64,000 nt of DNA from Novosphingobium sp. KA1 (lineage in GTDB: Bacteria; Pseudomonadota; Alphaproteobacteria; Sphingomonadales; Sphingomonadaceae): assembly GCF_017309955.1 (NCBI RefSeq), contig NZ_CP021248.1:992001-1056000 (forward strand), given 5' to 3'. Both the position numbers and the translations under genes were made by a program. The notes under the pieces were generated by a model. It did not search any database. It was not told the origin of the DNA and worked only from the letters and a program-made list of their open reading frames with translations. This document shows positions 5,032 to 34,318 of this stretch, piece by piece (within the stretch, counting starts at the first letter, position 1; each line of letters opens with the position of its first letter).

Positions 5032-5227
5032 GTTTTATGATCCGGTCGGGGCTGTTGTCAACGCCTTGATGGAGTGCATCGAAAAGGGAATCACAAACTG
5101 GATGGCAGCGGGAGCGGGAACCCCTGACGCGGACGGCGGGGACTGGGAGGCGGGGACTGGCCGCGATGGCGCTGTTCCGTTCCCCGCCCGCGTCACCAGC
5201 GCAGGAAAAGGCTTTGTCCAACCTCTC

Positions 5228-9490: not shown

Positions 9491-9528
9491 GAGGCGCTCC
9501 TTGCGCGCCGTTGCGGGAACCGCATCGC

Positions 9529-12021: not shown

Positions 12022-12065
12022 TGGATTGACCCCCTGATGTTCACGAGGCGGCGCAATCACGATGT

Positions 12066-12080
12066 TGCGACGCATTCTCA
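12066..12080. promoter_or_regulatory. Iron-box-like inverted repeat, site A
   Basis: TGCGA-CGCAT-TCTCA lies 45-59 bases upstream of the STN receptor ATG. Read on the minus strand it is TTGAGAATGCGTCGCAA, close to Fur-box-like elements in front of fec-type receptors. The same TGnnA-N5-TnnCA architecture recurs at 16594, 61734 and 61954. Confidence 0.5.
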
Positions 12081-12140
12081 ATAATGAAGACGGGGCGGGT
12101 CCGGAAAAGACGACCATGGGCGGAAAATAAATTTTGCACA

Positions 12141-14289: not shown

Positions 14290-14319
14290 TGCGCGATGTG
14301 CCGGCCTACCCGCCGGGCG

Positions 14320-16533: not shown

Positions 16534-16593
16534 TCGATGCCCCCTGTTCCCCCCGCCGGCCCTCCCGGCGTCGTTATGCGGGCGGGTCATTAA

Positions 16594-16608
16594 TGCGAAT
16601 AAGTCGCA
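16594..16608. promoter_or_regulatory. Iron-box-like inverted repeat, site B
   Basis: TGCGA-ATAAG-TCGCA is a perfect 5-base inverted repeat with a 5-base spacer, within AATGCGAATAAGTCGCAAT. A third half-like TCGCAAT follows at 16609-16615. It lies 61-75 bases upstream of the siderophore receptor at 14320-16533. Confidence 0.55.
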
Positions 16609-16772
16609 ATCGCAATACTTACGGTGAAATTTAAGTGCTTGATATGGCGCAGTGGGAATCGCGTCCGTGAGGTCTGCCGGTGATCCCGCGCACGCGTAAT
16701 GCGTCGTTGCGGCAAGACCCTCTGCCAGTCGGGTGAAGCGATGAGCGGGAACGCCGGGCCCTAAAAGCTTGG

Positions 16773-16831
16773 GTGAATATTTCGAAGGATGTCGTCCCTT
16801 TGCAGTGGGCAGGTTCCTGTGAATATTTCGA
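16773..16831. repeat. Two copies of a 13-base direct repeat
   Basis: GTGAATATTTCGA occurs at 16773-16785 and 16819-16831, 46 bases apart (between four and five helical turns), upstream of the receptor gene at 16941. This arrangement would suit tandem activator sites on one DNA face. Confidence 0.6.
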
Positions 16832-16851
16832 TGTTATGATGCAACATTACA
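16832..16851. promoter_or_regulatory. Imperfect inverted repeat before receptor gene
   Basis: TGTTAT-N8-ATTACA has arms with one mismatch and abuts the second copy of the 13-base direct repeat, about 90 bases upstream of the ATG at 16941. It is a possible operator; the regulator is unknown. Confidence 0.35.
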
Positions 16852-16940
16852 TTGACCAAGCCTCCCGGCCCTGACACAAGCCCGCCCGATCCCGGCGCCG
16901 GTGCGCCGCTTTTGCCGGGCAAATTCTCGAGGGGGGCTGC

Positions 16941-19109
16941 ATGCATCGATTTACCGGAAACCGCAGGCGGCTCGCGCGGACCGTGCCTCTTGTCATCGCG
17001 CTGGCGCCGTTCGCACCGTTCGATCAGGCCGCCGCCGAGGAAGCGCAGCGGGACAGTGACGAGCGCGCCGAAGCGATCACCGTGACCGGCGTGCGCCAGG
17101 CCTATCGCGGCAATTTCGCGGTTTCGGAAATTCCCCAGTCGATCGGGGAGATCTCGGCCGAGACCCTTGAGCGCAGCGGAATCCAGCGCCTGACCGATGC
17201 GCTGGACCTCAATGCCTCGGTCGTGCGGCAGAACACGCTGGGCGGGCTGTGGGACTCGTTCGCGATCCGGGGCTTCACCGGCGACGAGAACCTGCCGAGT
17301 GGCTACCTGGTGAACGGCTTCAACGGCGGGCGCGGTTTCGGCGGGCAGCGCGATACCGCCGGGATCGAGCGGGTCGAAGTGCTCAAGGGCCCGGCGGCGG
17401 CGCTGATCGGGCGCGGCGAGCCGGGCGGCACCGTCAACCTCGTGACCAAGCAGGCCGAGATCGGCCGCAGCTTCGGCAGCGCCTCGGTGCAATACGGGAG
17501 CTGGGGGCGCCTGCGCGGCGACGGGGACGTCAATGCCCAGCTGACCGGCGGCCTCACCGCACGCCTGATCGGTTATGCCGAGCAGGGCGACACGTTCCGC
17601 GACCATGTCCACCAGTCGCGCTGGGGGTTCCTGCCCTCGATCGGCCTCGCGCTCGGCCCCGATACGCGGCTTACCTATGATTTCGAGAAGACCCGCGTGG
17701 ACGTGCCGTTCGATCGCGGCATCGTGGTGCTTGACGGAAATTTCCGCACGGTGCCGCGTTCGCGCTTCCTGGGCGAGCCGGGTGACGGCGATACCACCGC
17801 CCGCGCCAGTGGACACCAGCTGCGCCTCCAGCACGAGTTCAGCGACCGCTGGAGCCTGCTGCTTGGCGGGAGCCTTCGCGATACCTTGCTCATCGGTTCC
17901 TCGTCCGATGCCGAAACGGTTCCCTCGCGCCAGGCGCTCTACGGCGATGGCCGCTCGCTTTCGCGCCAGCGCCGGACGCGCTACTACGATGCAAGCCACA
18001 AGGTCATCCGCGCCGAGCTGGCCGGGGAGTTCGAAACGGGGGGCCTGCGCCACCGCGTGCTGATCGGCGCGGATCATGACGCGTTCACCTACGATCAGGT
18101 GTTCCGCCGCTTTCGTCCGCCCAGCCTGACCACGGACCCGAGCGACGAGCAGGGCAACGTGATCGACATCCTCGATCCGGTCTACGGGCGCTTCGCGCTG
18201 CCGCAGACCAGTGTCATCACCGACCGCGTCGACCGGCAGCGCGCGACCGGCGCCTATGTCCAGGACCAGATCACGATCGACACGCGCCTCCAGCTTCGGA
18301 TCGGCGGCCGCTACGACCACCTGACGCTGGAGACCGACAACCGCCTGAGCGGCGTCGACAGCCGCCGCCGGCGCAGCCGGTTCAGTCCGCAGGCCGGTCT
18401 CGTCTACCGGCTGAGCGCGAAGCTGACGGCCTATGCCGCTTACGGGCAGGGCTTCCGTGCCAATGTCGGTACCGATGCGGCAGGAGCGATCTTTGATCCG
18501 GAAACCAGCGAATCCATCGAGGCGGGGCTGAAGTTCACCGTGCTGGGCGGGGCGCTGAGCGGGACACTCGCCGCGTTCCAGCTGACCAAGGCCAACGTGC
18601 TCGCCACCGATCCCAATGCGCCGGGCTATTCGCTGGCGATCGGCAAGGCACGCAGCCGGGGCGTGGAATTCGATCTTGGCGGGCACCTGCCGGGCGGTAT
18701 CGAGGTGCTGGTGAGCTATGCCTACCTCGATGCCGAGGCACGCTCACGCATGCAGGATCCCAATTTCCAGTTCCAGATCAATCCTGGCGATCCGCTGGTC
18801 AACATTCCCCGCCATAACCTTGCCATGCAGCTTGCCAAGGCCTTCTCCATCGGGAACCGTCAGGCGCAGGTCGGCGCCGGCATGCAGCACCTGGGCAAGC
18901 GCCTCGGCGAGACCGGCAGCGACTTCACGCTTCCCGCGCATACCCTGTTCCGGGTGTTCGGCAGCGTGGAGGTGATGGACCGGCTCGAACTGTTCGGCTC
19001 GGTTGCCAACCTGTTCGATGCGCATTGGTATGCGAACAGCTATTCGCCGCTATGGGTCCAGCCCGGCGCCCCGCGTACCGGCACCCTGGGCCTGCGCGCG
19101 CGGTTCTGA
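16941..19109 (+). CDS. TonB-dependent siderophore receptor
   Basis: 722 residues. A signal peptide (about 1-33), a TonB-box-like AITVTGVRQAYRG and a plug with IPQSIGEISAETLERSG, FAIRGFTGDENLPSG and VLKGPAAALIGRGEPGG (motifs of ferric-siderophore receptors) precede a beta-barrel ending in GLRARF. There is no STN domain. It is transcribed divergently from the receptor at 14320-16533 and stands alone, since the following gene is convergent. GAGGGG sits 7-8 bases before the ATG. The repeats at 16773-16851 may mark its control region. Confidence 0.88.
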   Translation: MHRFTGNRRRLARTVPLVIALAPFAPFDQAAAEEAQRDSDERAEAITVTGVRQAYRGNFAVSEIPQSIGEISAETLERSGIQRLTDALDLNASVVRQNTLGGLWDSFAIRGFTGDENLPSGYLVNGFNGGRGFGGQRDTAGIERVEVLKGPAAALIGRGEPGGTVNLVTKQAEIGRSFGSASVQYGSWGRLRGDGDVNAQLTGGLTARLIGYAEQGDTFRDHVHQSRWGFLPSIGLALGPDTRLTYDFEKTRVDVPFDRGIVVLDGNFRTVPRSRFLGEPGDGDTTARASGHQLRLQHEFSDRWSLLLGGSLRDTLLIGSSSDAETVPSRQALYGDGRSLSRQRRTRYYDASHKVIRAELAGEFETGGLRHRVLIGADHDAFTYDQVFRRFRPPSLTTDPSDEQGNVIDILDPVYGRFALPQTSVITDRVDRQRATGAYVQDQITIDTRLQLRIGGRYDHLTLETDNRLSGVDSRRRRSRFSPQAGLVYRLSAKLTAYAAYGQGFRANVGTDAAGAIFDPETSESIEAGLKFTVLGGALSGTLAAFQLTKANVLATDPNAPGYSLAIGKARSRGVEFDLGGHLPGGIEVLVSYAYLDAEARSRMQDPNFQFQINPGDPLVNIPRHNLAMQLAKAFSIGNRQAQVGAGMQHLGKRLGETGSDFTLPAHTLFRVFGSVEVMDRLELFGSVANLFDAHWYANSYSPLWVQPGAPRTGTLGLRARF

Positions 19110-19113
19110 AGGG

Positions 19114-19518
19114 TCATCTCAGGGCCATGTCGTAGACCACGACCCTTGCCCACAGATGGCTGCAAGCCTTGACGAAGGCCTGATGGATCGGGTGGTCCTG
19201 GTAGACCTTCTGGTCTTCGACGCTATCGAAGAACATCAGTTCGGAGACGTCGTAGCTGCCATCGACGACGTCGCGTGCCTCGGTGTCGGCGGGAATGCCG
19301 ATCTGCAGGTTCCGGATCACGGGAATGGCTGCCAAGGTGCGCAGGCCCGCCATCAACTGGTCGCGGTCCTCCTGCGATCCGGGGCGCTTGAGCCAGAAGA
19401 ACACGTGGTGGACCAGTCCGGGCCGGGTGGGCGCGGCTTCGGCCCCGGCCGCCGAGAGCGCCATGGCGCTGCCGCCCAGCGCGATCATGGCCGCGACGTC
19501 CCGTCTGCTTGCATCCAT
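19114..19518 (-). CDS. Exported DABB (stress-responsive A/B barrel) domain protein
   Basis: 134 residues. A twin-arginine-like signal ([20 protein letters not shown]) is followed by a dimeric alpha/beta-barrel domain starting [16 protein letters not shown], with [21 protein letters not shown] near the end. DABB proteins are small dimers found beside catabolic genes; some act as enzymes, many are uncharacterised. It lies 40 bases downstream of the LacI gene and is the last member of the 3-keto-sugar operon, so an accessory role on a sugar intermediate in the periplasm is possible. That role is inference. Confidence 0.75.
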
Positions 19519-19558
19519 GGTCTTGTTGTCCTTGTTCCGAGGTGGGCGGTGTGGGCGG

Positions 19559-20608
19559 TCATGACAAAGGCTCCGAAGCCCTGTGCGGGGCGATCGAGGC
19601 CCGTGTCACGATCGTATGGTCGAAGATCTCGTCGCTGACGTCGCTTCCGGTTTTGCCGAGCGCGGCGATCAGGCACTGGGCGGCGCGGTAGGCCATGTCC
19701 TCGACCGGCTGGCGAACGACCGTCAGCGGCGGCCAGAGCCGGGAGGCGAGGATGGTGTCGTCGAACCCGGTGACGGACAACTGGCCAGGCAATTGCAGGC
19801 CCTGCCGGTTGGCTTCGGCGACAACCCCGGCGGCAAGGTCGTCACTGCTGCAGATGATGGCGCTCGGCGGGGAGGGCAGGGCGAGGAGCTGCCGTGCCGC
19901 CGCCTCGCCCGAGGCATAGTCGAATGCGCCGTGCCGCACGATGAGACCGGGTTCCTCCGCCAGTCCGGCCGCGCGCAGGGCTTCGAGAAAGCCTTCGAGG
20001 CGGGCGCCGACAACGCTGTAATGGTCAGGCCCGGCGACATAGGCGATGCGGCGGTGGCCGGCGGCGATGACGTCCCGGGTGAGCGCCCGCATGGCGCCGC
20101 GATTGTCGATCCGCACGGTGGTGACATCGGCCAGCGCCGTTCCCGTGGCGATGGCGGCGAGGGGGACGCCGAGTTCTTCCAGAACCGTCGATCCGCTGAG
20201 CTGTTCGGCAAAGGGCGGGATCAGCAGCAGCGCATCGGCGCCCGAGCGCACGAGGTCCTGCGCCATGCGCTCGGCTTCCGCGCGGCTGCTGCCCTCGCCG
20301 TCGCGCAGCAGCAGTTGCAGGCCCTGGGCGTTGGTCGCGCGCAGGGCGCCCACCAGCACGGCATCCAGAAAGGGCGTGCGCCGGTCGCTGTAGAGCAGGC
20401 CCACGGTCGTCGCGCGCGACTTGGCGAGCCGCCGGGCCGCCAGGTTGGGGACATAGCCCAGTTCCGCGATCGCCGCGCGGACCGTCTCCACCGTGGCGGC
20501 ACTGGCCCTGCCGGCGCCGTTGAGGACGTTGGACACGGTCATCGCGGATACGCCGGCGCGCTGTGCCACGGCGCGGATCGTCACCCCGTTTTCGTTACGC
20601 CGCGCCAT
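19559..20608 (-). CDS. LacI-family transcriptional regulator of the 3-keto-sugar locus
   Basis: 349 residues. The N-terminal helix-turn-helix ([20 protein letters not shown], hinge helix around [11 protein letters not shown]) is followed by a periplasmic-binding-protein-like effector domain ([20 protein letters not shown] to the C-terminus). It lies within the operon, 68 bases after the GMC dehydrogenase gene and before the DABB gene, so it probably regulates its own transcript with a sugar or keto-sugar ligand. A LacI-style palindrome with central CCGG is present at 28442-28453 in the divergent promoter of the locus. GGAG lies 11 bases before the ATG. Confidence 0.88.
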
Positions 20609-20676
20609 CAGGTCATTGTCTCCATAGCCTCCGATAGCGTGTTTCCGCCGCCTTGCCAGCGCCGGAAACGGCAAAG

Positions 20677-22359
20677 TCAGATCGTCCCGGCCTTCATCGC
20701 GGCGACAGCGTGATCCACTGCCCGCGCGGTCAGCGCCATGAAGGTCAGCGAGGGATTGACGCAGGAGACCGAGGCCATCTGCGCGCCGTCGGTGACGAAC
20801 AGGTTGGCGGCGTCGTGCGCCTGGTTCCACTTGTTGAGCACCGCGCTGTGCGGATCGTCGCCCATGCGCGCGCCGCCCATCTCGTGGATGGCATCGCCGG
20901 GCACATGCTCCTTCACCTTGCTCACCACGTTGGTCAGCCCGGCGCCGCGCAGCATCCTCTCGCCCTGCTCGCGCGCATCGGCCATCATCTTCAGTTCGTT
21001 GTCGCGGAACGTGACGTTGAACTGCATCAGCGGCACCCCGAAACGGTCCACCTTGTCCGCGCTCAGGGCGACGTGGTTGTCTTCGTAGGGCAGGCATTCG
21101 CCAAAGGCGCCCATCTGGAATTTCCAGCCGCTGTAGCGGCGCATGCCCGCTTTCATCGCGGCGCCGAAGCCGACCGGCCTTGACGGTTCGCGGTAGGCCG
21201 CGCCCTGGTAGCCGTAGCCGCGGTGGAAGCCGAGGCCTTCGTCCCGCCCGTTGTTGCGGAAGCGGGGGACATAGATGGCGCCGGGGCGGCGGCCATATTC
21301 GATGAACTCCTCCATGCCCGGAATGTCGCCCTGCACGCCGACGCGGAAGATATGGTCCATCACGTAGCGGCCGAGCGTGCCGCTGCTGTTGAAATGGCTG
21401 CGCCCGGTGCCCTCGGCGCGCGAGTTCATCAGGACCTGCAGCGAGCCCATCGTCGAGGCATTGAGGAAGACGATCCTGGCGCGCACCACTTCCGCCTGCC
21501 CGGTCTTGGCATCGATGAAGCGCACGCCGGTGACCTTGCGGCTGGCGGGATCGTATTCGAGGCTGGTGACCACCGCATCGGAGCGCAGCGTCAGTCGACC
21601 GGTCGCCCTGGCGGCGGGCAGGGTGACGGCCTGGGTCGAGAAATAGGCGCCGAACGAACAGCCGTTGCTGCACTGGTTGCGCAGCTGGCAGCGGGTGCGG
21701 TTCTGCTCGGGCTTGTCCTCGGTCATGTTGGACAGGCGGGCATTGATCATCTTGCGGCCCGGGAAGGCGGTTTCCAGCCGCTGCTTCATCCACTTCTCGG
21801 CGATGTTCATCGGCATCGGTGGCTGGAACTCGCTGTCCGGCAGGTAGTCGAGATTTTCCCGCGAGCCCGAGACGCCGATATATTTCTCGACATAGCCGTA
21901 CCAGGGCAGGAGGTCGTCATAACCGATCGGCCAGTGGCCGCCGATGCCCTCGCGCTTGTTGGCCTCGAAGTCGGCGGCGCTCCAGCGGAAGCTCCAGCGG
22001 CCCCAGATCAGCGACTTGCCGCCGACCGCGCCGGGGCGGATCCAGTAGAACTTGCTGCCTTGCGCAAAGTCGTAGGGGTTCAGCCGGTCGTTGTTGTAGA
22101 AGGCCCGGTTGCTGGGGGCGACGTAGCCGTGCTGGGCGATGAAGTAGTCGCTCTCGCGCAGGCCCTCGGGCATGATGTTGCGCGCCGGGACTTCGTAGGC
22201 GGGCTTGCCGTCGTAGGTGTAGTCCTCGAGATGCTCGACCATGTGGCCGCGATCGAGCATCAGCACGCGCAGGCCCTTTTCGGTCAGTTCCTTTGCCGCC
22301 CAGCCGCCGCTGATGCCGGAGCCGATGACGATCGCATCGAACCTGTCGGTTGCCGCCAT
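20677..22359 (-). CDS. GMC-family FAD dehydrogenase, glucoside 3-dehydrogenase catalytic subunit type
   Basis: 560 residues. An FAD-binding Rossmann motif is at the start (IVIGSGISGGWAAKEL). A cysteine cluster C224-x5-C230-x3-C234 follows (RCQLRNQCSNGC), the spacing described for the 3Fe-4S cluster of FAD-dependent glucose dehydrogenase complexes. The C-terminal GMC signature has catalytic His and Asn (IHEMGGARMG; SCVNPSLTFMALTARA). There is no signal peptide of its own, consistent with export bound to the Tat-bearing small subunit at 23226-23804. It should oxidise the C3 hydroxyl of a sugar or glycoside and pass electrons to a cytochrome c (28005-28406). GGAGAAG lies 6 bases before the ATG. 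Confidence 0.85.
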   Translation of the reverse strand: MAATDRFDAIVIGSGISGGWAAKELTEKGLRVLMLDRGHMVEHLEDYTYDGKPAYEVPARNIMPEGLRESDYFIAQHGYVAPSNRAFYNNDRLNPYDFAQGSKFYWIRPGAVGGKSLIWGRWSFRWSAADFEANKREGIGGHWPIGYDDLLPWYGYVEKYIGVSGSRENLDYLPDSEFQPPMPMNIAEKWMKQRLETAFPGRKMINARLSNMTEDKPEQNRTRCQLRNQCSNGCSFGAYFSTQAVTLPAARATGRLTLRSDAVVTSLEYDPASRKVTGVRFIDAKTGQAEVVRARIVFLNASTMGSLQVLMNSRAEGTGRSHFNSSGTLGRYVMDHIFRVGVQGDIPGMEEFIEYGRRPGAIYVPRFRNNGRDEGLGFHRGYGYQGAAYREPSRPVGFGAAMKAGMRRYSGWKFQMGAFGECLPYEDNHVALSADKVDRFGVPLMQFNVTFRDNELKMMADAREQGERMLRGAGLTNVVSKVKEHVPGDAIHEMGGARMGDDPHSAVLNKWNQAHDAANLFVTDGAQMASVSCVNPSLTFMALTARAVDHAVAAMKAGTI

Positions 22360-22383
22360 GATGTTCTTCTCCCGGATCGAAGG

Positions 22384-23229
22384 TCAGAAGCGCAGGGCGC
22401 TGAGGGTCTGGAAGCTCTTGGTGATGTCGGGCAGGAAGGGCGCGGGCGCCTGGTCGTTCTCGACATAGAAGTGCCGCGCGCCGGCAAGGCCGTTGAGCTT
22501 GAAGATCCCGGCAAAGTCGATCGTGCCGGCGCCCACCGCGGTCATGCTGCGGTCCGCCCGCATGTCCTTGACGTGGTAGGCGTAGATGCGCCCGGCGAGA
22601 CGGCGGATCAGCGCCAGCGGATCTTCCCCGGCGTGGACGGCCCAGTAGATGTCCAGTTCGAAGCGGACGAAGGCAGGATTGCACGCCTTCAGCATCCGCT
22701 CGTAGAGGCTGACGCCGTCCGGCTTCACGGTGAACTCGAAGTCGTGATTGTGGTAGGCGAAGCCGAGACCGGCGGCCTTCAGCTTCTCGCCGAAGCGGTT
22801 GATGTTGACCAGCGCCGCGTCCCAGGCCTCGGCGTTGCGGTATTTGTCGACCATGTAGGGCAGGACGATGGTGTCCGCGCCCAGCGTGCGCGCCATCGCC
22901 ACGCTGGCGTCGAAGTTGCCGAGCAGCGCATCGTAGCCGACGTGGATGGAGGGGCAGGAGAGGCCCAGCCGGTCCATGGTGCTGCGCAGCCGCGCGTGAT
23001 CCATGGTGTCATAGCCGCCGCCGCCGTATTCCACTTCGCGGTAGCCGATGCGCGCGACGCTTTCGAGCGTGGCGAACGGATCGGCCGCGAACAGCTCGCG
23101 CACGGTATAGAGCTGCAGGCCGACCTTCTTGATCTGCGCGGCACCGGCGAGGCCGGCAAGCAGGGGCTGGCTGGCAAGCGCGGCAAGGCCGCCGGCGCCC
23201 AGCATGAGGGAACGACGATTCATGATCAT
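22384..23229 (-). CDS. Exported sugar isomerase/epimerase-like TIM-barrel protein (C)
   Basis: 281 residues. MNRRSLMLGAGGLAALASQ is a Tat-like signal and the mature protein begins near AAQIKKVG. It is a xylose-isomerase-like TIM barrel with candidate metal or catalytic residues at FAYHNHDFEF, FELDIYW, YAYHVKD and HFYVEND. It is predicted to work in the periplasm, where the 3-keto product of the GMC enzyme would form. Related proteins in 3-keto-glucoside loci act as lyases, hydratases or epimerases, and the exact reaction here is unknown. The start at 23229 makes an ATGA overlap with the small-subunit gene; an ATG two codons later (23223) is equally possible. Confidence 0.75.
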   Translation of the reverse strand: MIMNRRSLMLGAGGLAALASQPLLAGLAGAAQIKKVGLQLYTVRELFAADPFATLESVARIGYREVEYGGGGYDTMDHARLRSTMDRLGLSCPSIHVGYDALLGNFDASVAMARTLGADTIVLPYMVDKYRNAEAWDAALVNINRFGEKLKAAGLGFAYHNHDFEFTVKPDGVSLYERMLKACNPAFVRFELDIYWAVHAGEDPLALIRRLAGRIYAYHVKDMRADRSMTAVGAGTIDFAGIFKLNGLAGARHFYVENDQAPAPFLPDITKSFQTLSALRF

Positions 23230-23804
23230 GCGGAATAGACCTTGTTGACCTGGGAATAGGGGAAGGCGCCATTGTATTCGCCGGGGACGGGCAGGTATTC
23301 GCGTTCCTGGGTGATGCCGATCTCGGAGGTGTAGTAGCCGACGACAACCATCTGCCGGAACGCCTTGAAGAACTCCTCGCCATCGGGAAACGCGTTGTTC
23401 ATCGCCAGGGTCAGCAGCGCGTCCTGCTGTTCGGGGCTGGCCTGGGCGGCGGGGAGCTTGTAGTCCTGACGGCTGCGCGCGTCGATTTCGGCCAGGCCGG
23501 AGAGGATCGGCAGGCGATCTTCCGGCAGCGCCCAATCCGCCAGCAGCTTCTCGACATAGGCGGGAACCCCTGCGGCAATGGCGCCGGGGGTGTCGGTGGT
23601 GGGCACGATGCGTTCGCACAGCGCGGTCATCAGCGCGCGCTGCCCGGGCGTGAACACCTGGATGCTGGCCGCGCCCTCGTCGATTACCGGCATCGCGGCT
23701 CCGGTGGTGATCCCGGCGGCGCTCCCGGCTGCGCGGGCAAGGGGGGCAAAGAGCTGGGCGCCGAACATGGCGACCATGCCTGCAAGCGCGTTTCTGCGAT
23801 CCAT
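23226..23804 (-). CDS. Gluconate 2-dehydrogenase subunit 3-like small subunit of the GMC dehydrogenase
   Basis: 192 residues. The N-terminus has a twin-arginine pair and hydrophobic core (MDRRNALAGMVAMFGAQLFA), then a helical gluconate-2-dehydrogenase subunit 3 domain (FTPGQRALMTALCERIVPTT, then TPGAIAAGVPAYVE). In FAD-glucose dehydrogenase and glucoside 3-dehydrogenase complexes this subunit is the chaperone and export partner that carries the signal-less catalytic subunit through Tat. Its start shares one base with the DUF1080 stop (TAATG) and its stop overlaps the next gene (ATGA), so translation is continuous along the chain. Confidence 0.85.
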   Translation of the reverse strand: MDRRNALAGMVAMFGAQLFAPLARAAGSAAGITTGAAMPVIDEGAASIQVFTPGQRALMTALCERIVPTTDTPGAIAAGVPAYVEKLLADWALPEDRLPILSGLAEIDARSRQDYKLPAAQASPEQQDALLTLAMNNAFPDGEEFFKAFRQMVVVGYYTSEIGITQEREYLPVPGEYNGAFPYSQVNKVYSA

Positions 23805-24643
23805 TATCGTGCTGTCCCCTTGAGGTCCTGCTGGAGGTCCTGAGCGATGGCCTCTTCCGGCAGCGGGCGGACCCAGATGTTGCGGAAAGACACCGGCGAA
23901 TTGTGATCCTGCAACTGGATCGGCGCCTTGTCGGCGTGGGCCTGATACTGCGCGACCTTGCGCCAGACGGTGGTGCCCAGCATGGCCTGGTGGTTCTGCA
24001 CCAGCACGCCGTTCAGCAGCACGGTGACATAGGCCGGGCGCAGCAGCGCACCGCCGGCGTCGAAGCGCGGGCGTTCGAACACGATGTCGTAGCTCTGCCA
24101 TTCGCCGGGCGGCCGCGAGGGGTTCACCAGCGGCGGTTTCCACGCATAGACCGCGCCCACGGTGCCGTCGGCATAAGTCGGGTTGCGGTAACCGTCGAGG
24201 ATCTGGACTTCATAGCGCTGCATGAACCAGATGCCGCTGTTGCCCCGGTCCTGCGAGGTCTTCTCGGGCGGGTTGGGCGAGCGGAATTCCAGATGCAGCT
24301 GGACGTCGCCGAATTCCTGGTTCGAGACGAGGTTGTTCTCGCCGCCGCTCGCCGCCCGCGAGGGGATCGTCATGACGCCGTTGGCCAGCGTCCACGGCGC
24401 GCGCTCGCCGTGCCAGGCATCGAGCGAGGTGCCGGAGAACAGGACGATGGCATCGGAGGGCGGGGCGCCGGGAGCGGCGGCCGGCGTGACTTCGGCCGGC
24501 GCGGGCCGGTCGGGATCGTGGACGTGCCATGTGCCGCCGGGCAGCATCGGCGTATCCCTGAACCCCGGCTTGTCCTGCGCCTCCACGCACGTGGCCGTCA
24601 GGATGGAGCCTGCCACCACCAGGCCGATCGGGACATGTCGCAT
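23804..24643 (-). CDS. DUF1080 3-keto-glycoside hydrolase/lyase, exported
   Basis: 279 residues. A signal peptide (MRHVPIGLVVAGSILTATCV, cleavage near EAQD, with Cys18 a possible but unconvincing lipobox) is followed by a DUF1080 (3-keto-disaccharide hydrolase) beta-sandwich from about residue 65 (IVLFSGTSLDAWHGE) with the family motif GNSGIWFMQRYEVQILDGY. Such enzymes cleave 3-keto-glucosides by hydrolysis or elimination after C3 oxidation. The start at 24643 was chosen for GGGAG 7 bases upstream. An in-frame ATG at 24661 would instead give an ATGA overlap with the preceding gene. Confidence 0.85.
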   Translation of the reverse strand: MRHVPIGLVVAGSILTATCVEAQDKPGFRDTPMLPGGTWHVHDPDRPAPAEVTPAAAPGAPPSDAIVLFSGTSLDAWHGERAPWTLANGVMTIPSRAASGGENNLVSNQEFGDVQLHLEFRSPNPPEKTSQDRGNSGIWFMQRYEVQILDGYRNPTYADGTVGAVYAWKPPLVNPSRPPGEWQSYDIVFERPRFDAGGALLRPAYVTVLLNGVLVQNHQAMLGTTVWRKVAQYQAHADKAPIQLQDHNSPVSFRNIWVRPLPEEAIAQDLQQDLKGTAR

Positions 24644-24657
24644 CCACTCGCTCCCTT

Positions 24658-25584
24658 TCATGTCTTGTCGATGGCCCGGTAGGCGGCGATCAGGCGCTCC
24701 TCGCCCTCGCGGCCGGGGACGGAGTTGCCGTGCTCCATGCCGATCACGCCGTCATAGCCACGGGCGCGCAGCCACCGGGTGATGGTCGCGTAGTTGATCT
24801 CGCCGGTTCCCGGTTCCTTGCGGCCGGGATTGTCGCCGAACTGGATATAGCCGATCTCGGCCCAGCAGCTCTCGAGCGTCGGGATCAGGTTCCCGGACTG
24901 GATCTGCTCGTGGTAGAGATCCGCCAGGATCTTGACGCCGGGACCGTTTGCGCCGCGCGCGACCGCATAACCCTGCGCGATGGACTGCATGAACACGCCG
25001 GGGTGGTTGGTGCGGGTGTTGAGCGGCTCCATCACCAGCGTCAGCCCGTGCGGCGCGACGATGTCGCCCGCGCGGCGCATGCAGTCAATGATGCGGCCGG
25101 TCTGGATCGCTTCGGGCACCTTGCGGTCCATGAAGCCGGTGACCACCGTCATGTGCCGCGCGCCGAGCCGTTTGGCGACCGCGATCGAGGCGCGGATGTC
25201 GGCCAGAAACGCCTCCCGGTCGCCGTCGTCGTTGCTGCCCAGCACGGGGCGGAAGTCGGACCACTTCGGCATGCTGGCGACAAAGACGCCCATCGTCATG
25301 CCGCGCTGCGACAAGGCGCGAGCCATGGCCTCCTGCTGTTCGACGGGCCGCTTGGCGGCCTCGTTGTCCTCCCAGGCGCGAAAGCCCTGGTCGGCGGCAA
25401 AGGCGATCTGCTCCAGCAAGGCGCCGCGACTGGCAAAGCTGCCCTCGTGCGGGGCATAGCCGAGCGAGAAATAGGCGGCGTTGGAACTGCCCTTGCGCGC
25501 AGCCGCATGCGCCCCTGCCGAAAGGGCCGGTGCAGCAGCCGCGGCCAGCCCGGTGGCGATCACGGTGCGCCGGGTCAGGCTCAT
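24658..25584 (-). CDS. Exported hydroxypyruvate-isomerase-like TIM-barrel protein (B)
   Basis: 308 residues. A twin-arginine signal (MSLTRRTVIATGLAAAAAPA) is followed by a TIM barrel of the sugar isomerase/epimerase superfamily most like the Hyi branch: Glu in LVMEPLNTR, Asp/His in ILADLYHEQIQSG, Gln/Asp in IQFGDNPGRKEPGTGEI and Glu in IGMEHGNS. It is predicted periplasmic and may epimerise, isomerise or hydrate a 3-keto-sugar intermediate. It overlaps the MFS stop by 4 bases (25581-25584). It is clearly different in sequence from proteins A and C of the same operon, so they are unlikely to be redundant copies. Confidence 0.75.
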   Translation of the reverse strand: MSLTRRTVIATGLAAAAAPALSAGAHAAARKGSSNAAYFSLGYAPHEGSFASRGALLEQIAFAADQGFRAWEDNEAAKRPVEQQEAMARALSQRGMTMGVFVASMPKWSDFRPVLGSNDDGDREAFLADIRASIAVAKRLGARHMTVVTGFMDRKVPEAIQTGRIIDCMRRAGDIVAPHGLTLVMEPLNTRTNHPGVFMQSIAQGYAVARGANGPGVKILADLYHEQIQSGNLIPTLESCWAEIGYIQFGDNPGRKEPGTGEINYATITRWLRARGYDGVIGMEHGNSVPGREGEERLIAAYRAIDKT

Positions 25585-26885
25585 GCCGCGCCCTCCGCCA
25601 GACCGCCGGTTTTGCGGGCGGCGCGCCGCTCGGCCAGCCAGATCACGCCGAACACGATCAGCAGCGTCAGCGGGACAAAGGTCAGCCGGGCAAAAGACTG
25701 CGAGGCGGCGGCATCTTCCACCGCCGTGAGCGCGGGCCCGGTGAGCTTCGTGAAGGCGTCCGGTCCGCCGGCCAGCTCGACCTTGGCCGCGTCGAACATC
25801 TCGCCAAGGCGCGGCAGCACAAAGAAGCTCGCCAGCGCACCGGCCGAACCGACCAGCCCGAGCGCCCAGGAATCGCCGCGCGGGTAGCGTTCGGCAACCG
25901 AGGCCAGCATCGTCGGCCACATCGCGCAGACGCCAAGGCCCCAGACGGTCGATGCCAGGATCGCGGAAACCGGGGACTGGGCCTGCGAAAGCAGGAACAG
26001 CCCGATCGCGGCGAGCAGGCTGGAGACCCAGAGCAGGCCCGGATTGGACAGGCGGCCGGCGATCCGTCCGGCGAAGTGGCGGAACACGAACATCAGCGCG
26101 CTGACATAGACCAGCAGCAGGATGCCGCGCATGCCGACGCGGTTGCTGAGCGCCACGTCGATCCACTGGCCCGGCGCCAGCTCGGAAGAGGCGGTGAGGA
26201 ACATCGCTCCGAACCAGATGAAGAAGCTGGGACGGCGCACCACTTCCAGCATCATGTCCTTCATCGCCCGCTCGCCGGCCGCCGCGGGCGGCTCGGGGAA
26301 GCGGGTCGTGGCGGCGATCATGATGACAAGCACGGCGGGAAGGAACACCAGCGCCATGATCGCCTGCCAGGGCAGCAGCGGCGCCAGGAACACGCCGGCG
26401 AGCCCGCCGACGATGAGCCCGCCCGGATACCAGGCGTGAAGCACGTTGAGCCGGTGGGTGGTGGCTTCGGGATAGAGCCGCGCGGTCAGCGGATTGATCG
26501 ATGCCTCGGCAAAGCCCCAGCCGATGCCGCTCAGCAGCATGCCCAGCCAGACGAGGTGGTAGACCGCCATGCCGCTGGCGAACAGGCCCGCCCCGACGAT
26601 CAGGGTGGTGCCGATGAGGAAGGCGATCCCGCAGCCGATCAGCACGCGGCGGATGCCGATCCGGTCCAGCACCGCGCTGACCACAAAGACGGTGATCGAG
26701 AAGCCGAGGAACGCCGAGCCGAGCGCGGCGCCGATCATTTCGCCCGCCGAAATCGGCGCGACGGGGTCGATCCACTGCGCCTTCAGGCTGCTGGCGACTG
26801 CCGCGCGCAGCGACGCGCTCATCGACGCGGTGAAGAGCGCCAGGACGCTCAGCCAGAATAGCCTTTGCCGGTTTATGTCCGTCAT
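25581..26885 (-). CDS. MFS sugar transporter
   Basis: 434 residues with about 12 hydrophobic helices and an MFS loop (AVLDRIGIRRVLIGCG between helices 2 and 3). The central loop (about 195-215, FPEPPAAAGERAMKD) is basic and cytosolic. The overall pattern resembles the fucose/glucose permease branch. In this operon it should import the sugar released or modified in the periplasm. The start at 26885 was chosen for AGAGGA 6 bases upstream; an ATG six codons earlier (26903) has none. A 61-base gap separates it from the upstream isomerase gene, which could hold an internal promoter. Confidence 0.85.
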   Translation of the reverse strand: MTDINRQRLFWLSVLALFTASMSASLRAAVASSLKAQWIDPVAPISAGEMIGAALGSAFLGFSITVFVVSAVLDRIGIRRVLIGCGIAFLIGTTLIVGAGLFASGMAVYHLVWLGMLLSGIGWGFAEASINPLTARLYPEATTHRLNVLHAWYPGGLIVGGLAGVFLAPLLPWQAIMALVFLPAVLVIMIAATTRFPEPPAAAGERAMKDMMLEVVRRPSFFIWFGAMFLTASSELAPGQWIDVALSNRVGMRGILLLVYVSALMFVFRHFAGRIAGRLSNPGLLWVSSLLAAIGLFLLSQAQSPVSAILASTVWGLGVCAMWPTMLASVAERYPRGDSWALGLVGSAGALASFFVLPRLGEMFDAAKVELAGGPDAFTKLTGPALTAVEDAAASQSFARLTFVPLTLLIVFGVIWLAERRAARKTGGLAEGAA

Positions 26886-26946
26886 GCCCGATCCTCTACC
26901 CATGGGCCCCGTGTTGTCTGTTATCGGGGACGTGTTTGCCGTGCCG

Positions 26947-27990
26947 TCAGGTCAACCCCAGCCAGCGCCGGTTGTTGGCGGGATCTCCGCCCCCTGCGAA
27001 ATCGTCGAATGCCCGCTCCGGACGGCGGATCATGTGCGCCGCGATGAAGGGTGCCCCCTCGCGCGCGCCGTCCTCGGGGTGCTTGAGGCAGCACTCCCAT
27101 TCGAGCACCGCCCAGCCCTCGTAGCCATACTGGGTTAGACGCGAGAAGATGCCGGTAAAGTCGACCTGCCCGTCGCCCAGCGAGCGGAAACGGCCGGGAC
27201 GATCGACCCAGTCGGCATAGCCGCCATAGACGCCCGCCCGCCCGGTCGGATTGAGTTCGGCGTCCTTGACGTGGAACATCCTGATGCGCTCGTGATAGAT
27301 GTCGATGAACTGGAGGTAGTCCATCGCCTGCAACACGAAGTGGCTGGGATCGTAGAGAATGTTGGCGCGCCGGTGGCCGCCTACGGCATCGAGGAAACGC
27401 TCGAAGGTCAGGCCGTCGTGCAGGTCCTCACCGGGATGGAGTTCGAAGCAGAGGTCGACCCCTTCCTCGTCGAAGCTGTCGAGGATCGGCTGCCAGCGCC
27501 GCCCCAGTTCCGCGAAGGCTTCCTCCACCAGACCGGCGGGGCGCTGCGGCCAGGGATAGAAGAACGGCCAGGCAAGCGCGCCCGAGAAGGTGGCGTGGGC
27601 CGTCAGCCCCAGGCGGCGGCTGGCCTTTGCCGCAAGCTTGAGCTGATCCACCGCCCATGCCTGCCGCTGCGCGGGCTTGCCGCGCAGTTCGGCCGGGGCG
27701 AAAGCATCGAAGGCGGCGTCATAGGCGGGATGGACCGCCACCAGCTGGCCTTGCAGGTGGGTGGACAGCTCGGTGATCTCGACCCCGGCCTCGCGGCAGC
27801 GCCCGGCCAGTTCGTCGCAATAGTCCTGGCTTTCGGCCGCCAGCCCAAGGTCCATGCAGCGCGGATCGTTGCTGGGCACCTGGATGCCCTTGTAGCCGGC
27901 CTGCGCCATCCACCGGGCGGCATTGTCCAGGCTGTCGAACGGGGCGGCATCACCCATGAACTGCGCCAGAAAGATGGCAGGACCACGCAT
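26947..27990 (-). CDS. Cytosolic sugar isomerase/epimerase-like TIM-barrel protein (A)
   Basis: 347 residues without a signal peptide, so cytoplasmic. It has the xylose-isomerase-like TIM-barrel pattern with ligands in the usual strand positions: Glu in CFELHPGED, Asp/His in ILYDPSHFV, His/Asp in MFHVKDAEL and Glu in AVLEWEC. Homologues encoded beside Gfo/Idh and DUF1080 genes take part in 3-keto-glucoside breakdown, for example hydrating or isomerising a keto-glucal. The exact reaction here is inference. It lies 14 bases downstream of the cytochrome c gene. Confidence 0.78.
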   Translation of the reverse strand: MRGPAIFLAQFMGDAAPFDSLDNAARWMAQAGYKGIQVPSNDPRCMDLGLAAESQDYCDELAGRCREAGVEITELSTHLQGQLVAVHPAYDAAFDAFAPAELRGKPAQRQAWAVDQLKLAAKASRRLGLTAHATFSGALAWPFFYPWPQRPAGLVEEAFAELGRRWQPILDSFDEEGVDLCFELHPGEDLHDGLTFERFLDAVGGHRRANILYDPSHFVLQAMDYLQFIDIYHERIRMFHVKDAELNPTGRAGVYGGYADWVDRPGRFRSLGDGQVDFTGIFSRLTQYGYEGWAVLEWECCLKHPEDGAREGAPFIAAHMIRRPERAFDDFAGGGDPANNRRWLGLT

Positions 27991-28004
27991 CGTGCTTGTG
28001 CCCC

Positions 28005-28406
28005 TTACTTCAGGCTCTTGAGATAGGCGACGATCGCGGCGCGCTTGGCCGGATCGGGCGTGGCGATCGGCATCCGGGTGCCGGGCACCTTTTTGGCCGG
28101 CGCGGCGAGGAAGGCGTCGAGCGTCTTGTCGTCCCAGCTCAGCTTCGAGCCCTTGAGCGCGGGCGAATAGTTGAAGCCAGGGGCAGCGGCGGCCTGGCGT
28201 CCGGCCACGCCGTTGAGGTTGGGGCCGACACCGTTCTTGCCGCCCTTGTCCACGCTGTGACAGGCGCGGCAGGCGTTGAAGGCGGCGGGTGCGGTCTGCG
28301 CCGCGGCGCTGCCGGCGGTAAACAGGGCGGCCAGCATCATTGCTGCGGCGAGGGTTCTCGGGCGCGGGGTCATGGGGGGCAGGCTGAGGGGTGCTGTCAT
28401 GCGCAT
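28005..28406 (-). CDS. Periplasmic monohaem cytochrome c
   Basis: 133 residues. A hydrophobic signal (about 18-36, TLAAAMMLAALFTAGSAAA) precedes one CxxCH haem site (FNACRACHSVDKGG). GVGPNLNGVAGR and a methionine ligand region (VPGTRMPIATPDPAKRAAIV) follow, the class I layout. It is the first gene of the 3-keto-sugar operon and the natural electron acceptor of the GMC/subunit-3 dehydrogenase, as in Caulobacter lacABC-type complexes. GGAGAG lies 6 bases before the ATG at 28406; a second ATG two codons later is possible. Confidence 0.88.
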   Translation of the reverse strand: MRMTAPLSLPPMTPRPRTLAAAMMLAALFTAGSAAAQTAPAAFNACRACHSVDKGGKNGVGPNLNGVAGRQAAAAPGFNYSPALKGSKLSWDDKTLDAFLAAPAKKVPGTRMPIATPDPAKRAAIVAYLKSLK

Positions 28407-28441
28407 CCTCGACTCTCCGTCTTATTTCTTATTGCCATATG

Positions 28442-28453
28442 TTTACCGGTAAA
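28442..28453. promoter_or_regulatory. LacI-type operator candidate in divergent promoter
   Basis: TTTACCGGTAAA is a perfect 12-base palindrome centred on CCGG, in an AT-rich 110-base region between the divergent cytochrome c and Gfo/Idh genes. Flanking ATATG and CATAT extend the symmetry with a one-base offset. LacI proteins bind palindromes with a central CG step, and the locus encodes a LacI regulator at 19559-20608. Confidence 0.55.
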
Positions 28454-28516
28454 TCATATCGGATCAAGGCTGAAATTCATGACTTTATGGTATTCTGAAA
28501 AATACAAGGGAGAGCG

Positions 28517-29674
28517 GTGATGAAACGGACCCTGCAACTGGCCATGGTGGGCGGAGGCGAGGGCGCCTTCATCGGCGCGATCCACCGCGCGGCGGCGGCG
28601 CTCGACGGGGACTGGCGACTGGTCGCAGGGGCCTTCAGCAGCGATCCCGCGCGCAACCGGCGCTCGGGCGACATGCTGGGCATTGCACCGGCGCGCACTT
28701 ATGCGTCGCTGGAGGCCATGCTTGCCGCGGAATCGGGTCTGCCCGAAGCGGAACGGGTGGATGCGGTGTCGATCGTCACGCCCAACCACCTCCACGCGCC
28801 GATGGCGATTGCCGCGCTGGACGCCGGTTTTCACGTCTTCTGCGAAAAGCCCATGGCGCTGAGCACTGCGGAAGCGCAGGAAATCGCGCAGGCTGCGGCG
28901 CGTTCCGGCCGTCACTTCGCGCTTGCCTTCACCTATAGCGGTTATCCCTTGATCGAGGAGGCGCGGGCGCGGGTCGCGCGCGGCGATTTCGGCAAGGTGC
29001 GGCTGGTCCAGGTCGAGTATTCGCAAGGCTGGCTCAGCCAGCCGATCGACCGGGACGGCAACAAGCAGGCCGAATGGCGCACCGATCCCGCGCGCGCCGG
29101 GCTGGGGGGCTGTCTCGGCGACATCGGCACCCATGCCTTCCACCTGGCCGAACACGTATCGGGGCTCCGGGTGGAGCAGCTCTGTGCCGACCTCGCGACC
29201 CACGTTCCGGGTCGCCAGCTGGATGACGATGTCAGCGTGCTGCTGCGGCTCGATAACGGTGCGCGCGGCGTGCTCAAGGCCACCCAGGTCGCGGCCGGGG
29301 ACGAGAACGGCCTGAAGCTGCGTATCCACGGCGAGGCGGGCGGTCTCGAGTGGTCGCAGATGGAACCCAACAGCCTGGTGCTGCGTTGGCTGGACCGGCC
29401 GATGGAAACCGTGCGATCCGGCGGTCCGGGGCTGGCGCCGTCCACCTTGCAGCGGCTGCGCACCCCGGCGGGCCATCCCGAGGGCTACATCGAGGCTTTC
29501 GCAAACCTCTACCGCGCCTTTGCCGCCCGTATCCTCGGCGATGCGCCGGGCCCGGACGACGCATTCCCATCCGTCGCGGCGGGACTGCGCACCATGGCAT
29601 TTGTCGAAAGCGTGGTCGCCAATGCCGGGTCTGACAGCAAATGGACGCAGCTGGAGTTTACGCCCGGGTCATGA
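28517..29674 (+). CDS. Gfo/Idh/MocA-family oxidoreductase
   Basis: 385 residues. The N-terminal Rossmann start is LAMVGGGEGAFIGAIHRAA, followed by the family EKPMAL motif with catalytic-type Lys (VFCEKPMALSTAEAQE) and the C-terminal domain motif GGCLGDIGTHAFHLAEHVSG with the Asp/His pair. It has no signal peptide and is cytosolic NAD(P)-dependent. Divergent from the operon and sharing its promoter region, it probably reduces a 3-keto-sugar to the free sugar or oxidises C3 inside the cell. AAGGGAG lies 5 bases before the tandem ATG codons. Its 3' end overlaps the convergent hydroxylase-like gene by 6 bases. Confidence 0.85.
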   Translation: MMKRTLQLAMVGGGEGAFIGAIHRAAAALDGDWRLVAGAFSSDPARNRRSGDMLGIAPARTYASLEAMLAAESGLPEAERVDAVSIVTPNHLHAPMAIAALDAGFHVFCEKPMALSTAEAQEIAQAAARSGRHFALAFTYSGYPLIEEARARVARGDFGKVRLVQVEYSQGWLSQPIDRDGNKQAEWRTDPARAGLGGCLGDIGTHAFHLAEHVSGLRVEQLCADLATHVPGRQLDDDVSVLLRLDNGARGVLKATQVAAGDENGLKLRIHGEAGGLEWSQMEPNSLVLRWLDRPMETVRSGGPGLAPSTLQRLRTPAGHPEGYIEAFANLYRAFAARILGDAPGPDDAFPSVAAGLRTMAFVESVVANAGSDSKWTQLEFTPGS

Positions 29675-30472
29675 GTTCACCGCCTGGGCTTCGCCGCCTT
29701 CCGCGCTCAGTCCCGGGAGGCCGCGGTCAGGCACCGTGCGCGCCTTGATCGCGTCGAAATCGGCTTCGTATCGCTTGCGTATGGTTCCGCAGAGACGGTC
29801 CCAGATCGTCGTGTAGCCGCCGTAATTGCCGGTGAAGTAGCGATGGTGCTGGTCGTGGAACGTCGCGGTGATGAACCACTTGGTAGCCCAGGTGCGGTTC
29901 CACCAGCGCGGCAGGAACTCGTATCCGGAGTGCACGTAGAGACCCATGACGATGTTGGTCGGCAGGATCAGCGCCATCGTTGCGGGATGAACGGTGAAGA
30001 TCGCCAGGAACAGCGGCACGAAGCCGCCGTTGATGATCGATTCCAGCGGATTGACGGAGAGTGTCGTCAGCAGGTTGGGCGAGGTCGACTTGTGGTGAAG
30101 CTTGTGCACCCAGCCATAGAACGGCTCCTTGTGCATCCAGCGATGGAGCCAGTAGAAATAGGTGTCGAACAGGAAAAAGTACGCGCCGAACTCCAGCGCG
30201 ATCATCCACCAGGGGGCAGGGCCGCTGTGGAAGGTGATCCAGCCCTGCGCCTTCAGCCAGCCAGTAGCGGCGCCAAGGATCTTGCCCGAGATCAGCAGGG
30301 TGATCACGGCGACGATCGCTTCGTTGCGCAGTGTCTTCCACTTGAACCCGCGCGGCTGGATCTTGCGGGCCTTGAAGAATCCGCTGACGATGCCGGCAAC
30401 CACGCCGGTGGCGACAAAGGCCCATAGCCAGACGGTGAGCGCCTGTTCACCGGTGAAGAGCGTTTCGATCAT
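29669..30472 (-). CDS. Sterol desaturase/fatty acid hydroxylase-family membrane protein
   Basis: 267 residues with about four membrane helices and the di-iron histidine boxes HRWMH, HKLHH and HDQHH in the family order (the first two about 13 residues apart, the third near residue 205). Members insert or hydroxylate C-H bonds in lipids or carotenoids in the inner membrane; the substrate here is unknown. The N-terminal helix starts right after the ATG. A small ORF ends 8 bases upstream, so the two may be co-translated. It is not obviously part of the sugar locus. Confidence 0.82.
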   Translation of the reverse strand: MIETLFTGEQALTVWLWAFVATGVVAGIVSGFFKARKIQPRGFKWKTLRNEAIVAVITLLISGKILGAATGWLKAQGWITFHSGPAPWWMIALEFGAYFFLFDTYFYWLHRWMHKEPFYGWVHKLHHKSTSPNLLTTLSVNPLESIINGGFVPLFLAIFTVHPATMALILPTNIVMGLYVHSGYEFLPRWWNRTWATKWFITATFHDQHHRYFTGNYGGYTTIWDRLCGTIRKRYEADFDAIKARTVPDRGLPGLSAEGGEAQAVNS

Positions 30473-30480
30473 GGCGGCGC

Positions 30481-30570
30481 TCAGGCCAGTGCGACGGCAA
30501 AGGCGATGGCATGGGCAAGCACGGCAAGCATGCCGGCAACAAGGACCGGGCGATACGGGATGGCGGGCAT
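30481..30570 (-). CDS. 29-residue hydrophobic small protein upstream of the hydroxylase
   Basis: An ATG preceded by a perfect AGGAG five bases upstream opens a frame of 29 codons: MPAIPYRPVLVAG, then MLAVLAHAIAFAVALA, then TGA. The second half is a single membrane-spanning length of Ala/Leu/Val/Phe residues. The stop lies 8 bases before the hydroxylase ATG. Its strong ribosome-binding site and position suggest a real small membrane protein or a translated leader for the next gene. I recognise no family. Confidence 0.45.
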   Translation of the reverse strand: MPAIPYRPVLVAGMLAVLAHAIAFAVALA

Positions 30571-30744
30571 GGCAATCTCCTGAAGTCTCGTGCGGCCCCA
30601 ACGGGAGGTGCCGCCTGTCCGGTTTCAGGTGACAGGCCGCGATTGGCGGGCAATCGGTTTTACGTTACGTTGGCAAGGCCGCCGCAAAGTCGGCGAAAAT
30701 GCGGCGATTTTCCAATTGGCGCATCGTGAATGGGGAGATGCTGC

Positions 30745-33831: not shown

Positions 33832-34318
33832 GTCCTCTCCCCTGTTCGGCGTCGGCGGGATTTCCCGCCCTGCCGGTGGTTCGCCGCTGCCGTCCTTGTC
33901 GCCTTCGCGATCTTCGCAAGCACCGGAACCACGGCTGTGGCAGACCGGCAGCCGCTTGGCGCACCAAAAATTCAGCATGCGAAATAATATCGGGACGCCG
34001 ATGCCGACCAGCGGCACGAGCATTCCGAGGGGCGGATCGGCATCGCTCTTCTTCGGGTTGATGGCGGCAATCGGGGTGACGCTCTCGCCGGGGCGGTGCG
34101 CAGGACGGCATTGCCCTGCGCCAGAACGGTTCTGCCGGAACCGTCACGGTCATCGGCCGCGAGCCGGAATAGCCTTACGGGCGCCCGCCGCACTCCAAGG
34201 AATACTTCGCGCGGGAGAAGACCTTCAACCGCCTCCACATCCGCCTGCCGTCGAGGTGCCGGCCGATGCGGGAACGCCGCTCTAGGAACTGCTCTGAGGG
34301 AGGGGCGGGGGCGGCGCT
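33832..34318. other. Non-coding stretch upstream of the PKD hydrolase
   Basis: No convincing gene is seen in these 487 bases. Frames on both strands are short, Arg/Pro/Ser-rich or lack ribosome-binding sites. A short plus-strand frame around 34090-34170 reads [18 protein letters not shown] before a stop, which looks more protein-like than its surroundings and could be a decayed gene remnant. The region 33963-33990 is AT-rich and could hold the hydrolase promoter. Confidence 0.4.

Follow-up and report, generated by a model that had tools for sequence, protein, structure and literature searches.

Which sugars does the gene cluster at positions 19114–29674 of a stretch of the Novosphingobium sp. 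KA1 genome serve, by which chemistry, and in which cell compartments? The stretch (the window) comprises 64,000 nucleotides of contig NZ_CP021248.1; the host genome has 5.78 Mb in three contigs. We propose, with a probability of roughly 0.78, that the cluster is an operon under LacI control that supports growth on O-glycosides, in which oxidation, elimination, hydration and reduction would be distributed across two compartments. According to open reading frame (ORF) calls and start sites, it consists of ten minus-strand genes and one divergent plus-strand Gfo/Idh gene, a layout that the first-pass annotation of this DNA had described and that the ORF calls and Pfam bear out. Minus-strand neighbours overlap by 1–4 bases at four junctions and are separated by 14–68 bases at the other five, an operon-like arrangement. 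All domain matches listed here exceeded the cut-off in a Pfam scan of the eleven proteins (Tat, twin-arginine translocation):

19114–19518, minus: DABB-domain protein, accessory, with a Tat-like leader (PF07876, 68.5 bits; 3bn7, 141.9 bits)
19559–20608, minus: LacI-family regulator (PF00356, 58.6 bits; PF13377, 118.5 bits)
20677–22359, minus: GMC FAD dehydrogenase, proposed catalytic subunit (LacB-like) of a glycoside 3-dehydrogenase (PF05199, GMC_oxred_C, 69.1 bits; PF00732)
22384–23229, minus: TIM1, proposed exported 3-keto-O-glycoside beta-eliminase, AtOGE-like (AP_endonuc_2, 56.0 bits; 8bvk)
23226–23804, minus: Gluconate_2-dh3 subunit (subunit 3; LacA-like) with a Tat-type leader (PF13618, 119.6 bits)
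23804–24661, minus: DUF1080 protein (3keto-disac_hyd, PF06439, 143.1 bits), proposed periplasmic 3-keto-glycoside eliminase/hydratase
24658–25584, minus: TIM2, hydroxypyruvate-isomerase-like TIM barrel with a Tat-type leader (AP_endonuc_2, 116.4 bits)
25581–26903, minus: MFS transporter, proposed importer of 3-keto-glucose or 2-hydroxy-3-keto-glucal (PF07690, MFS_1, 78.4 bits)
26947–27990, minus: TIM3, proposed cytoplasmic 2-hydroxy-3-keto-glucal hydratase (AP_endonuc_2, 140.5 bits; 8ro4)
28005–28406, minus: mono-haem cytochrome c (LacC-like) with a Sec-like leader and one CRACH haem motif (PF00034, 37.5 bits)
28441–28454: palindromic operator, proposed LacI site (TTTACCGGTAAA core at 28442–28453), between the divergent Gfo/Idh and cytochrome c genes
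28517–29674, plus: Gfo/Idh/MocA oxidoreductase (Gfo), proposed cytoplasmic 3-keto-glucose reductase (PF01408, GFO_IDH_MocA, 75.9 bits; PF22725)

Judged by homology only, the segment 20677–29674 holds the parts of a non-hydrolytic 3-keto-glycoside locus, namely GMC with subunit 3 and cytochrome c, TIM1/DUF1080, TIM3 and Gfo; homology and linkage likewise support the earlier claim of an oxidative 3-keto-sugar catabolic locus with all named parts. Gene content, conservation, homology, the active-site residues of TIM1, leader motifs and the co-occurrence of operator and regulator were observed; from these we infer what the substrates are, which reactions take place, where each protein is located, which species is transported and what TIM2 does. 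In the periplasm, GMC, which the Tat leader of subunit 3 would carry across the membrane, would oxidize C3 of the glycosyl unit, its electrons being drained by cytochrome c. TIM1 (AtOGE-like, with a Mn-type site) and/or the DUF1080 protein would eliminate the aglycone. The resulting glucal would either be hydrated by DUF1080, still in the periplasm, or be imported by the MFS transporter and then hydrated by cytoplasmic TIM3, and Gfo would convert 3-keto-glucose to glucose. TIM2 may be a periplasmic enzyme whose substrate is a 3-keto sugar or glycoside; it could be a C4 epimerase that serves galactosides.

How far is this gene set conserved? From a TIM3 scan we analysed the best 80 of at least 594 confirmed stretches. 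Eleven of these loci (L011–L021, all Sphingomonadales) keep the gene order of the window, nine with DUF1080 and six with a LacI orthologue (at least 59% identity). Fourteen further loci from Gammaproteobacteria and Bacteroidota (L030, L041, L042, L057, L059, L062, L065, L072, L073, L075, L079, L081, L085 and L090) have matches to GMC, subunit 3, TIM1, TIM2, TIM3, Gfo and DUF1080 in other gene orders. All seven enzyme classes thus occur in 23/80 loci from three bacterial groups (9 Sphingomonadales and 14 others), a count that includes some matches at superfamily level only (22–35% identity) and that short contigs lower. For a tally of close relatives, L011–L021, selected by TIM3 similarity, were combined with nine loci from genomes of the same family, selected by TIM2 similarity (L100–L108), so that TIM3 in the former and TIM2 in the latter are present by construction; L014 and L015 are near duplicates (TIM2 0.96), and L109 and L110 (TIM2 43% and 38%) were excluded. 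GMC, subunit 3, TIM1 and TIM2 were found in all 20 loci, TIM3 and Gfo in 19, DUF1080 and cytochrome c in 18, the MFS transporter in 16 and LacI (at least 59%) in 8. The retained gene order argues against a chance cluster. Two neighbours, a TonB receptor gene (16941–19109) and a fatty-acid-hydroxylase-like gene (29669–30601), were rejected as parts of the locus, being matched over half their length in none of the 20 loci; a partial TonB match (28%) lies at the edge of the L101 stretch. This absence of the flanking genes supports the borders of the block. The DABB protein, which the first-pass annotation had counted as a feature of the pathway, is present in the locus but is its weakest member: only 4/20 relatives have one, that of L106 (53%) lying on the opposite side of Gfo, and we rejected it as an essential part.

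The first step is proposed to be catalysed by a cytochrome-linked glycoside 3-dehydrogenase made of GMC, subunit 3 and cytochrome c. One operon holds a Gluconate_2-dh3 subunit with a Tat-type leader, a GMC protein and a cytochrome c, the three genes that we take, partly by assumption, to define a LacABC-type complex. Subunit 3 has matches at three places in the host genome. A third GMC and Gluconate_2-dh3 pair lies on the same contig (L115, 1471000–1490000, at 7293–9622 of that stretch); a 407-residue gene resembling an MFS transporter adjoins it, and no lyase or hydratase match was seen nearby.

Two candidates for the cleaving enzyme are encoded side by side with this module. TIM1, found at one place only in the host genome, has AtOGE as its top PDB match (8bvk, 101.8 bits), and 8tct, 8tcd and 8tcs, TIM-barrel entries presumably from the Bacteroides/Alistipes 3-keto-glycoside pathway, also match. 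The published description of AtOGE gives His132, Asp163, His189 and Glu233 as metal ligands and His134 as the catalytic residue (PMC10628242). H160, H162, D193, H219 and E257 of TIM1 align with AtOGE His132, His134, Asp163, His189 and Glu233, and these five and N161 are invariant in 19/19 aligned sequences; TIM1 resembles the 3-keto-O-glucoside beta-eliminase AtOGE, with metal and catalytic residues intact. The DUF1080 protein combines PF06439 above the cut-off with the fold of 8rr2/9fbe/8tda, and its model matches the eliminase/hydratase 9fbe and the hydratases 8v31 and 8tda; its closest match is 4qhz, from a separate subfamily. A hydrophobic leader was seen in 15 of 17 extracted sequences (18 exist), L014 and L015 lacking it because of a mis-chosen start. 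DUF1080 has matches at three places in the host genome, the third below the cut-off.

The cytoplasmic end would be formed by TIM3 and Gfo. TIM3 is identical to 8ro4 ('2-hydroxy-3-keto-glucal hydratase') at 264/345 aligned residues (77%; residues 2–346), which ties the locus to 3-keto-glucosides, and by homology it is probably such a hydratase itself; it has matches at two places in the host genome. We take 8ro4 to be the other sugar phosphate isomerase-like enzyme of the Agrobacterium GlycDH operon. The top PDB matches of Gfo are 3v5n (354 bits) and 7d5m (245 bits). That the three TIM barrels are of different kinds, as had been stated at first, holds; that all are isomerases does not, as TIM1 looks like a beta-eliminase and TIM3 like a hydratase. 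Ten Pelagibacteraceae loci (L035, L040, L054, L058, L060, L063, L066, L069, L070 and L077) present a minimal two-gene version, the hydratase gene followed directly by that of the Gfo reductase; the stretches fetched for these loci contain no match to GMC, TIM1 or DUF1080.

Where would each step take place? Leaders were called by a crude test, an arginine (RR) pair plus hydrophobicity, with no trained predictor. TIM1, TIM2 and subunit 3 each start with an RR pair that precedes or meets a hydrophobic stretch (20/20 related loci each); an RR leader was found in none of the GMC (0/20) or TIM3 (0/19) relatives and a hydrophobic leader in no Gfo protein (0/19). This pattern suggests periplasmic oxidation and cleavage, followed by cytoplasmic hydration and reduction, with the MFS transporter as the joining element; from such a split it would follow that the carrier moves 3-keto-glucose or the glucal. 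In L107 a TIM2-DUF1080-subunit 3-TIM1-GMC block stands without TIM3, Gfo and MFS, which in this genome lie about 58 kb away (L120) beside another GMC/subunit 3 pair, a modularity that fits one block for periplasmic oxidation and cleavage and another for cytoplasmic hydration and reduction.

As to regulation, we propose the palindrome at 28441–28454 as the LacI site. The 12-mer TTTACCGGTAAA has its sole exact copy of the window here, and the 14-mer GTTTACCGGTAAAT, between the divergent genes, is the sole exact copy in the 5.78-Mb genome; with two mismatches the 14-mer gave 11 rows genome-wide versus 5 for a reversed-pattern control. Within each stretch, the pattern TTTA-N4-TAAA is confined to the divergent gap in 9/9 loci with a LacI orthologue (the window and 8 relatives); it is missing from the whole fetched stretch in all 12 loci without one, among them L105 (LacI 52%) and L102 and L108 (32–33%). 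A naive one-sided Fisher test on these loci, which are related by descent, gives 3.4e-6. The bare pattern also occurs in 7/13 loci outside the Sphingomonadales set and so means little by itself.

TIM2 is hydroxypyruvate-isomerase-like and a candidate 3-keto-hexose(ide) epimerase or isomerase by its sequence. Hydroxypyruvate isomerase itself was rejected (NCBIfam TIGR03234, Hyi, 129 bits versus a curated cut-off of 353.45), and an enzyme of the YcjR type (E. coli 3-keto-D-glucoside 4-epimerase, 6wn6) was not accepted, YcjR not being the closest TIM-barrel homologue. Among the matches listed, the nearest named relatives of TIM2 come from Novosphingobium (95% in N. clariflavum). Distribution is patchy: 10/199 genomes of the family have TIM2 at 68% identity or more, and 7/385 genomes of the class at E <= 1e-40, the host included in both. 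The gammaproteobacterial and Bacteroidota counterparts are 20–23% identical to TIM2 of the window, have His in place of Gln248, and may be analogues, not orthologues. A bolder and, we think, unlikely proposal is that TIM2 works in the periplasm as a 3-keto-hexose/glycoside isomerase or epimerase, for example turning 3-keto-galactosides into 3-keto-glucosides, and that hydration is run twice by unrelated hydratases, DUF1080 outside and TIM3 inside the inner membrane. TIM2 would then let one glucose-specific line of lyase, hydratase and reductase serve galactosides as well. We know of no periplasmic 3-keto-hexose(ide) isomerase or epimerase of this kind, and none was found in the literature searched.

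Several observations weigh against the proposed O-glycoside pathway, whose substrates are putative. The solved proteins closest to GMC are dehydrogenases of fructose (large subunit 8k6j, 141.6 bits) and glucose, GMC/subunit 3 pairs without a lyase, hydratase or reductase match in the vicinity occur in L115, L116, L117 and L119, and cytochrome c was not detectable in L105 and L107. TIM1 shares just 72 identities with AtOGE across about 226 residues, and the AtOGE chain (259 residues) seems to have no export leader. The operon lacks DUF1080 at the usual place in L013 and L016. In the neighbourhood of distant TIM2 relatives (34–43%; L109, L110, L121 and L122) no match to GMC, TIM1 or TIM3 was seen, so the TIM2 family is not everywhere tied to this pathway; DUF1080 accompanies that of L109 only, in L110 TIM2 stands alone, and the genomes of both L109 and L110 are without a TIM3 match. 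Hydrophobicity values overlap between TIM2 (1.35–2.15) and GMC (1.25–1.61), so that the leader call rests on the RR motif, and 2/19 Gfo proteins contain an RR pair but no hydrophobic stretch. Finally, the operator counts come from loci of shared descent and hence are not independent, and a promoter scan of 28300–28600 found no sigma-70-like promoter. The L013 and L016 genomes have PF06439 elsewhere (5 rows each, some within one open frame).

The locus is of the known non-hydrolytic 3-keto-glycoside kind. The Caulobacter crescentus lac locus, as published (Price 2022; PMC9007349), has in one cluster a LacABC-type dehydrogenase, a DUF1080 protein with a signal peptide (CCNA_01705), a transporter, two sugar epimerases and a sugar reductase; oxidation by LacABC and cleavage by DUF1080 are placed in the periplasm, and on lactose lacABC is required, the DUF1080 protein, transporter, epimerases and reductase being important. 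With this set described earlier, and with all seven classes in the 23 loci above, the merger of a haem-linked oxidase with DUF1080 and isomerase-family proteins, put forward as new in the first-pass annotation, was already known. The Caulobacter cluster, compared here through its published description, is reported with two epimerases upstream of lacB, whereas the operon of the window has three TIM-barrel proteins of distinct subfamilies, LacI and an operator; in the Caulobacter control genome PF06439 and PF13618 matches were seen. Given the shared parts, the operon could encode a plain system of this type, in which LacABC oxidizes lactose, DUF1080 cleaves 3'-keto-lactose in the periplasm and the TIM proteins handle 3-keto-galactose, TIM1 not being a main lyase. 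We consider this possible but doubtful: L013 and L016 keep TIM1 yet are without the DUF1080 gene of the locus (with the PF06439 matches elsewhere noted above), the eliminase residues of TIM1 are invariant, and TIM3 is by homology a glucal hydratase.

Compared through papers and PDB sequences, the Agrobacterium tumefaciens GlycDH operon shares the sequence of oxidation, elimination, hydration and reduction, a flavoenzyme dehydrogenase with a TAT-signal partner, and an AtOGE-like protein: it encodes GlycDH, a further oxidoreductase and two sugar phosphate isomerase-like enzymes, one of them AtOGE (PMC10628242; 8bvk). The locus at 19114–29674 differs in the Tat-type leader of TIM1 and in having DUF1080, cytochrome c, TIM2, MFS and LacI in the operon. 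With the Bacteroides/Alistipes enzymes (BT2157 = 3osd, BT2 = 8tda, AL2 = 8v31, 8rr2 and 9fbe) it shares the DUF1080 family. Their pathway presumably starts with a Gfo/Idh-type glycoside 3-dehydrogenase of the BT_2158 family (a name taken from NCBIfam), that of the present locus with the cytochrome-linked GMC instead. What this locus adds to these systems is the predicted export of both TIM1 and TIM2, a pair of hydratase families within a single operon, and the operator with its regulation.

According to the Caulobacter paper (PMC9007349), it is not known what becomes of 3-keto-galactose when lactose is used oxidatively, and a Novosphingobium is listed as 3-ketolactose-forming (PMC5443232); we found no genes behind 3-ketolactose formation in the Novosphingobium group in the open-licence literature searched. 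The locus offers a compact gene set for addressing the 3-keto-galactose step, with TIM2 as the candidate, and the question of how two lyases and two hydratases share the work.

Could the oxidation module act on a free polyol or sugar acid instead, as in inositol or gluconate oxidation, with the TIM proteins of IolE/Hyi type? IolE is indeed the best named NCBIfam model for both TIM1 (49 bits) and TIM3 (64 bits), as is Hyi for TIM2, and the second model for Gfo is inositol 2-dehydrogenase (71 bits), after levoglucosan dehydrogenase (LevoglcsnDh, 119 bits). All these scores fall well short of the curated cut-offs (290, 353, 355 and 650 bits, the last for LevoglcsnDh), and the inositol and hydroxypyruvate names were rejected for this reason. 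Given the 77% identity of TIM3 to a 3-keto-glucal hydratase and the occurrence of DUF1080 in 18/20 relatives, we regard this explanation as very improbable.

Least probable of all is a C-glycoside degradation locus of the CarA/DgpABC/CGE type, which has a similar outline of TIM-barrel lyase and oxidoreductase. It was rejected because such a locus would have a PF19906 beta subunit beside a TIM-barrel alpha subunit, and none of the three PF19906 places in the genome, one of them in the window, falls within 19114–29674. The first-pass annotation had named C-glucosides beside O-glucosides as test substrates; more likely, C-glycosides are handled by the PF19906 loci and O-glycosides by the 19114–29674 locus.

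The three PF19906 (C-glycoside deglycosidase beta subunit) matches lie in the window (3631–3966), in a second 3-keto-sugar locus and at 375 kb of the same contig. The window match belongs to a minus-strand pair of C-glycoside-deglycosidase type (3577–3969, beta, 124 bits; 3969–4973, TIM-barrel alpha), about 14 kb to the left of the locus and separate from it. The second 3-keto-sugar locus, at 413–424 kb (L114 = 405000–424500, at 4063–19245), encodes DUF1080, a hydratase paralogue (71%), Gfo (52%), GMC (47%) and a Gluconate_2-dh3 subunit, together with an alpha/beta pair of C-glycoside-deglycosidase type, MFS_2 and TonB receptor genes; adjoining glyoxalase/dioxygenase-family and FAD_binding_3 genes look like aromatic (aglycone) catabolism. 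At 375 kb (L123, 9083–10561), C-glycoside-deglycosidase-like beta and alpha parts form one 492-residue open frame (PF19906 at residues 11–122, AP_endonuc_2 at 176–450) with a P450 gene following it, unlike CGE, which is described as a heterodimer.

Elsewhere in the window, the minus-strand row at 7916–16590 encodes a PepSY_TM protein, an extracytoplasmic function (ECF)-type sigma factor, a TonB C-terminal protein and a TonB receptor consecutively; with a further TonB-receptor-like match at 9532–11262, it looks like metal or iron uptake. An 806-residue ORF on the minus strand at 31603–34023, with an uncertain start, has a PKD domain and also matches Abhydrolase_10, though weakly and below the cut-off.

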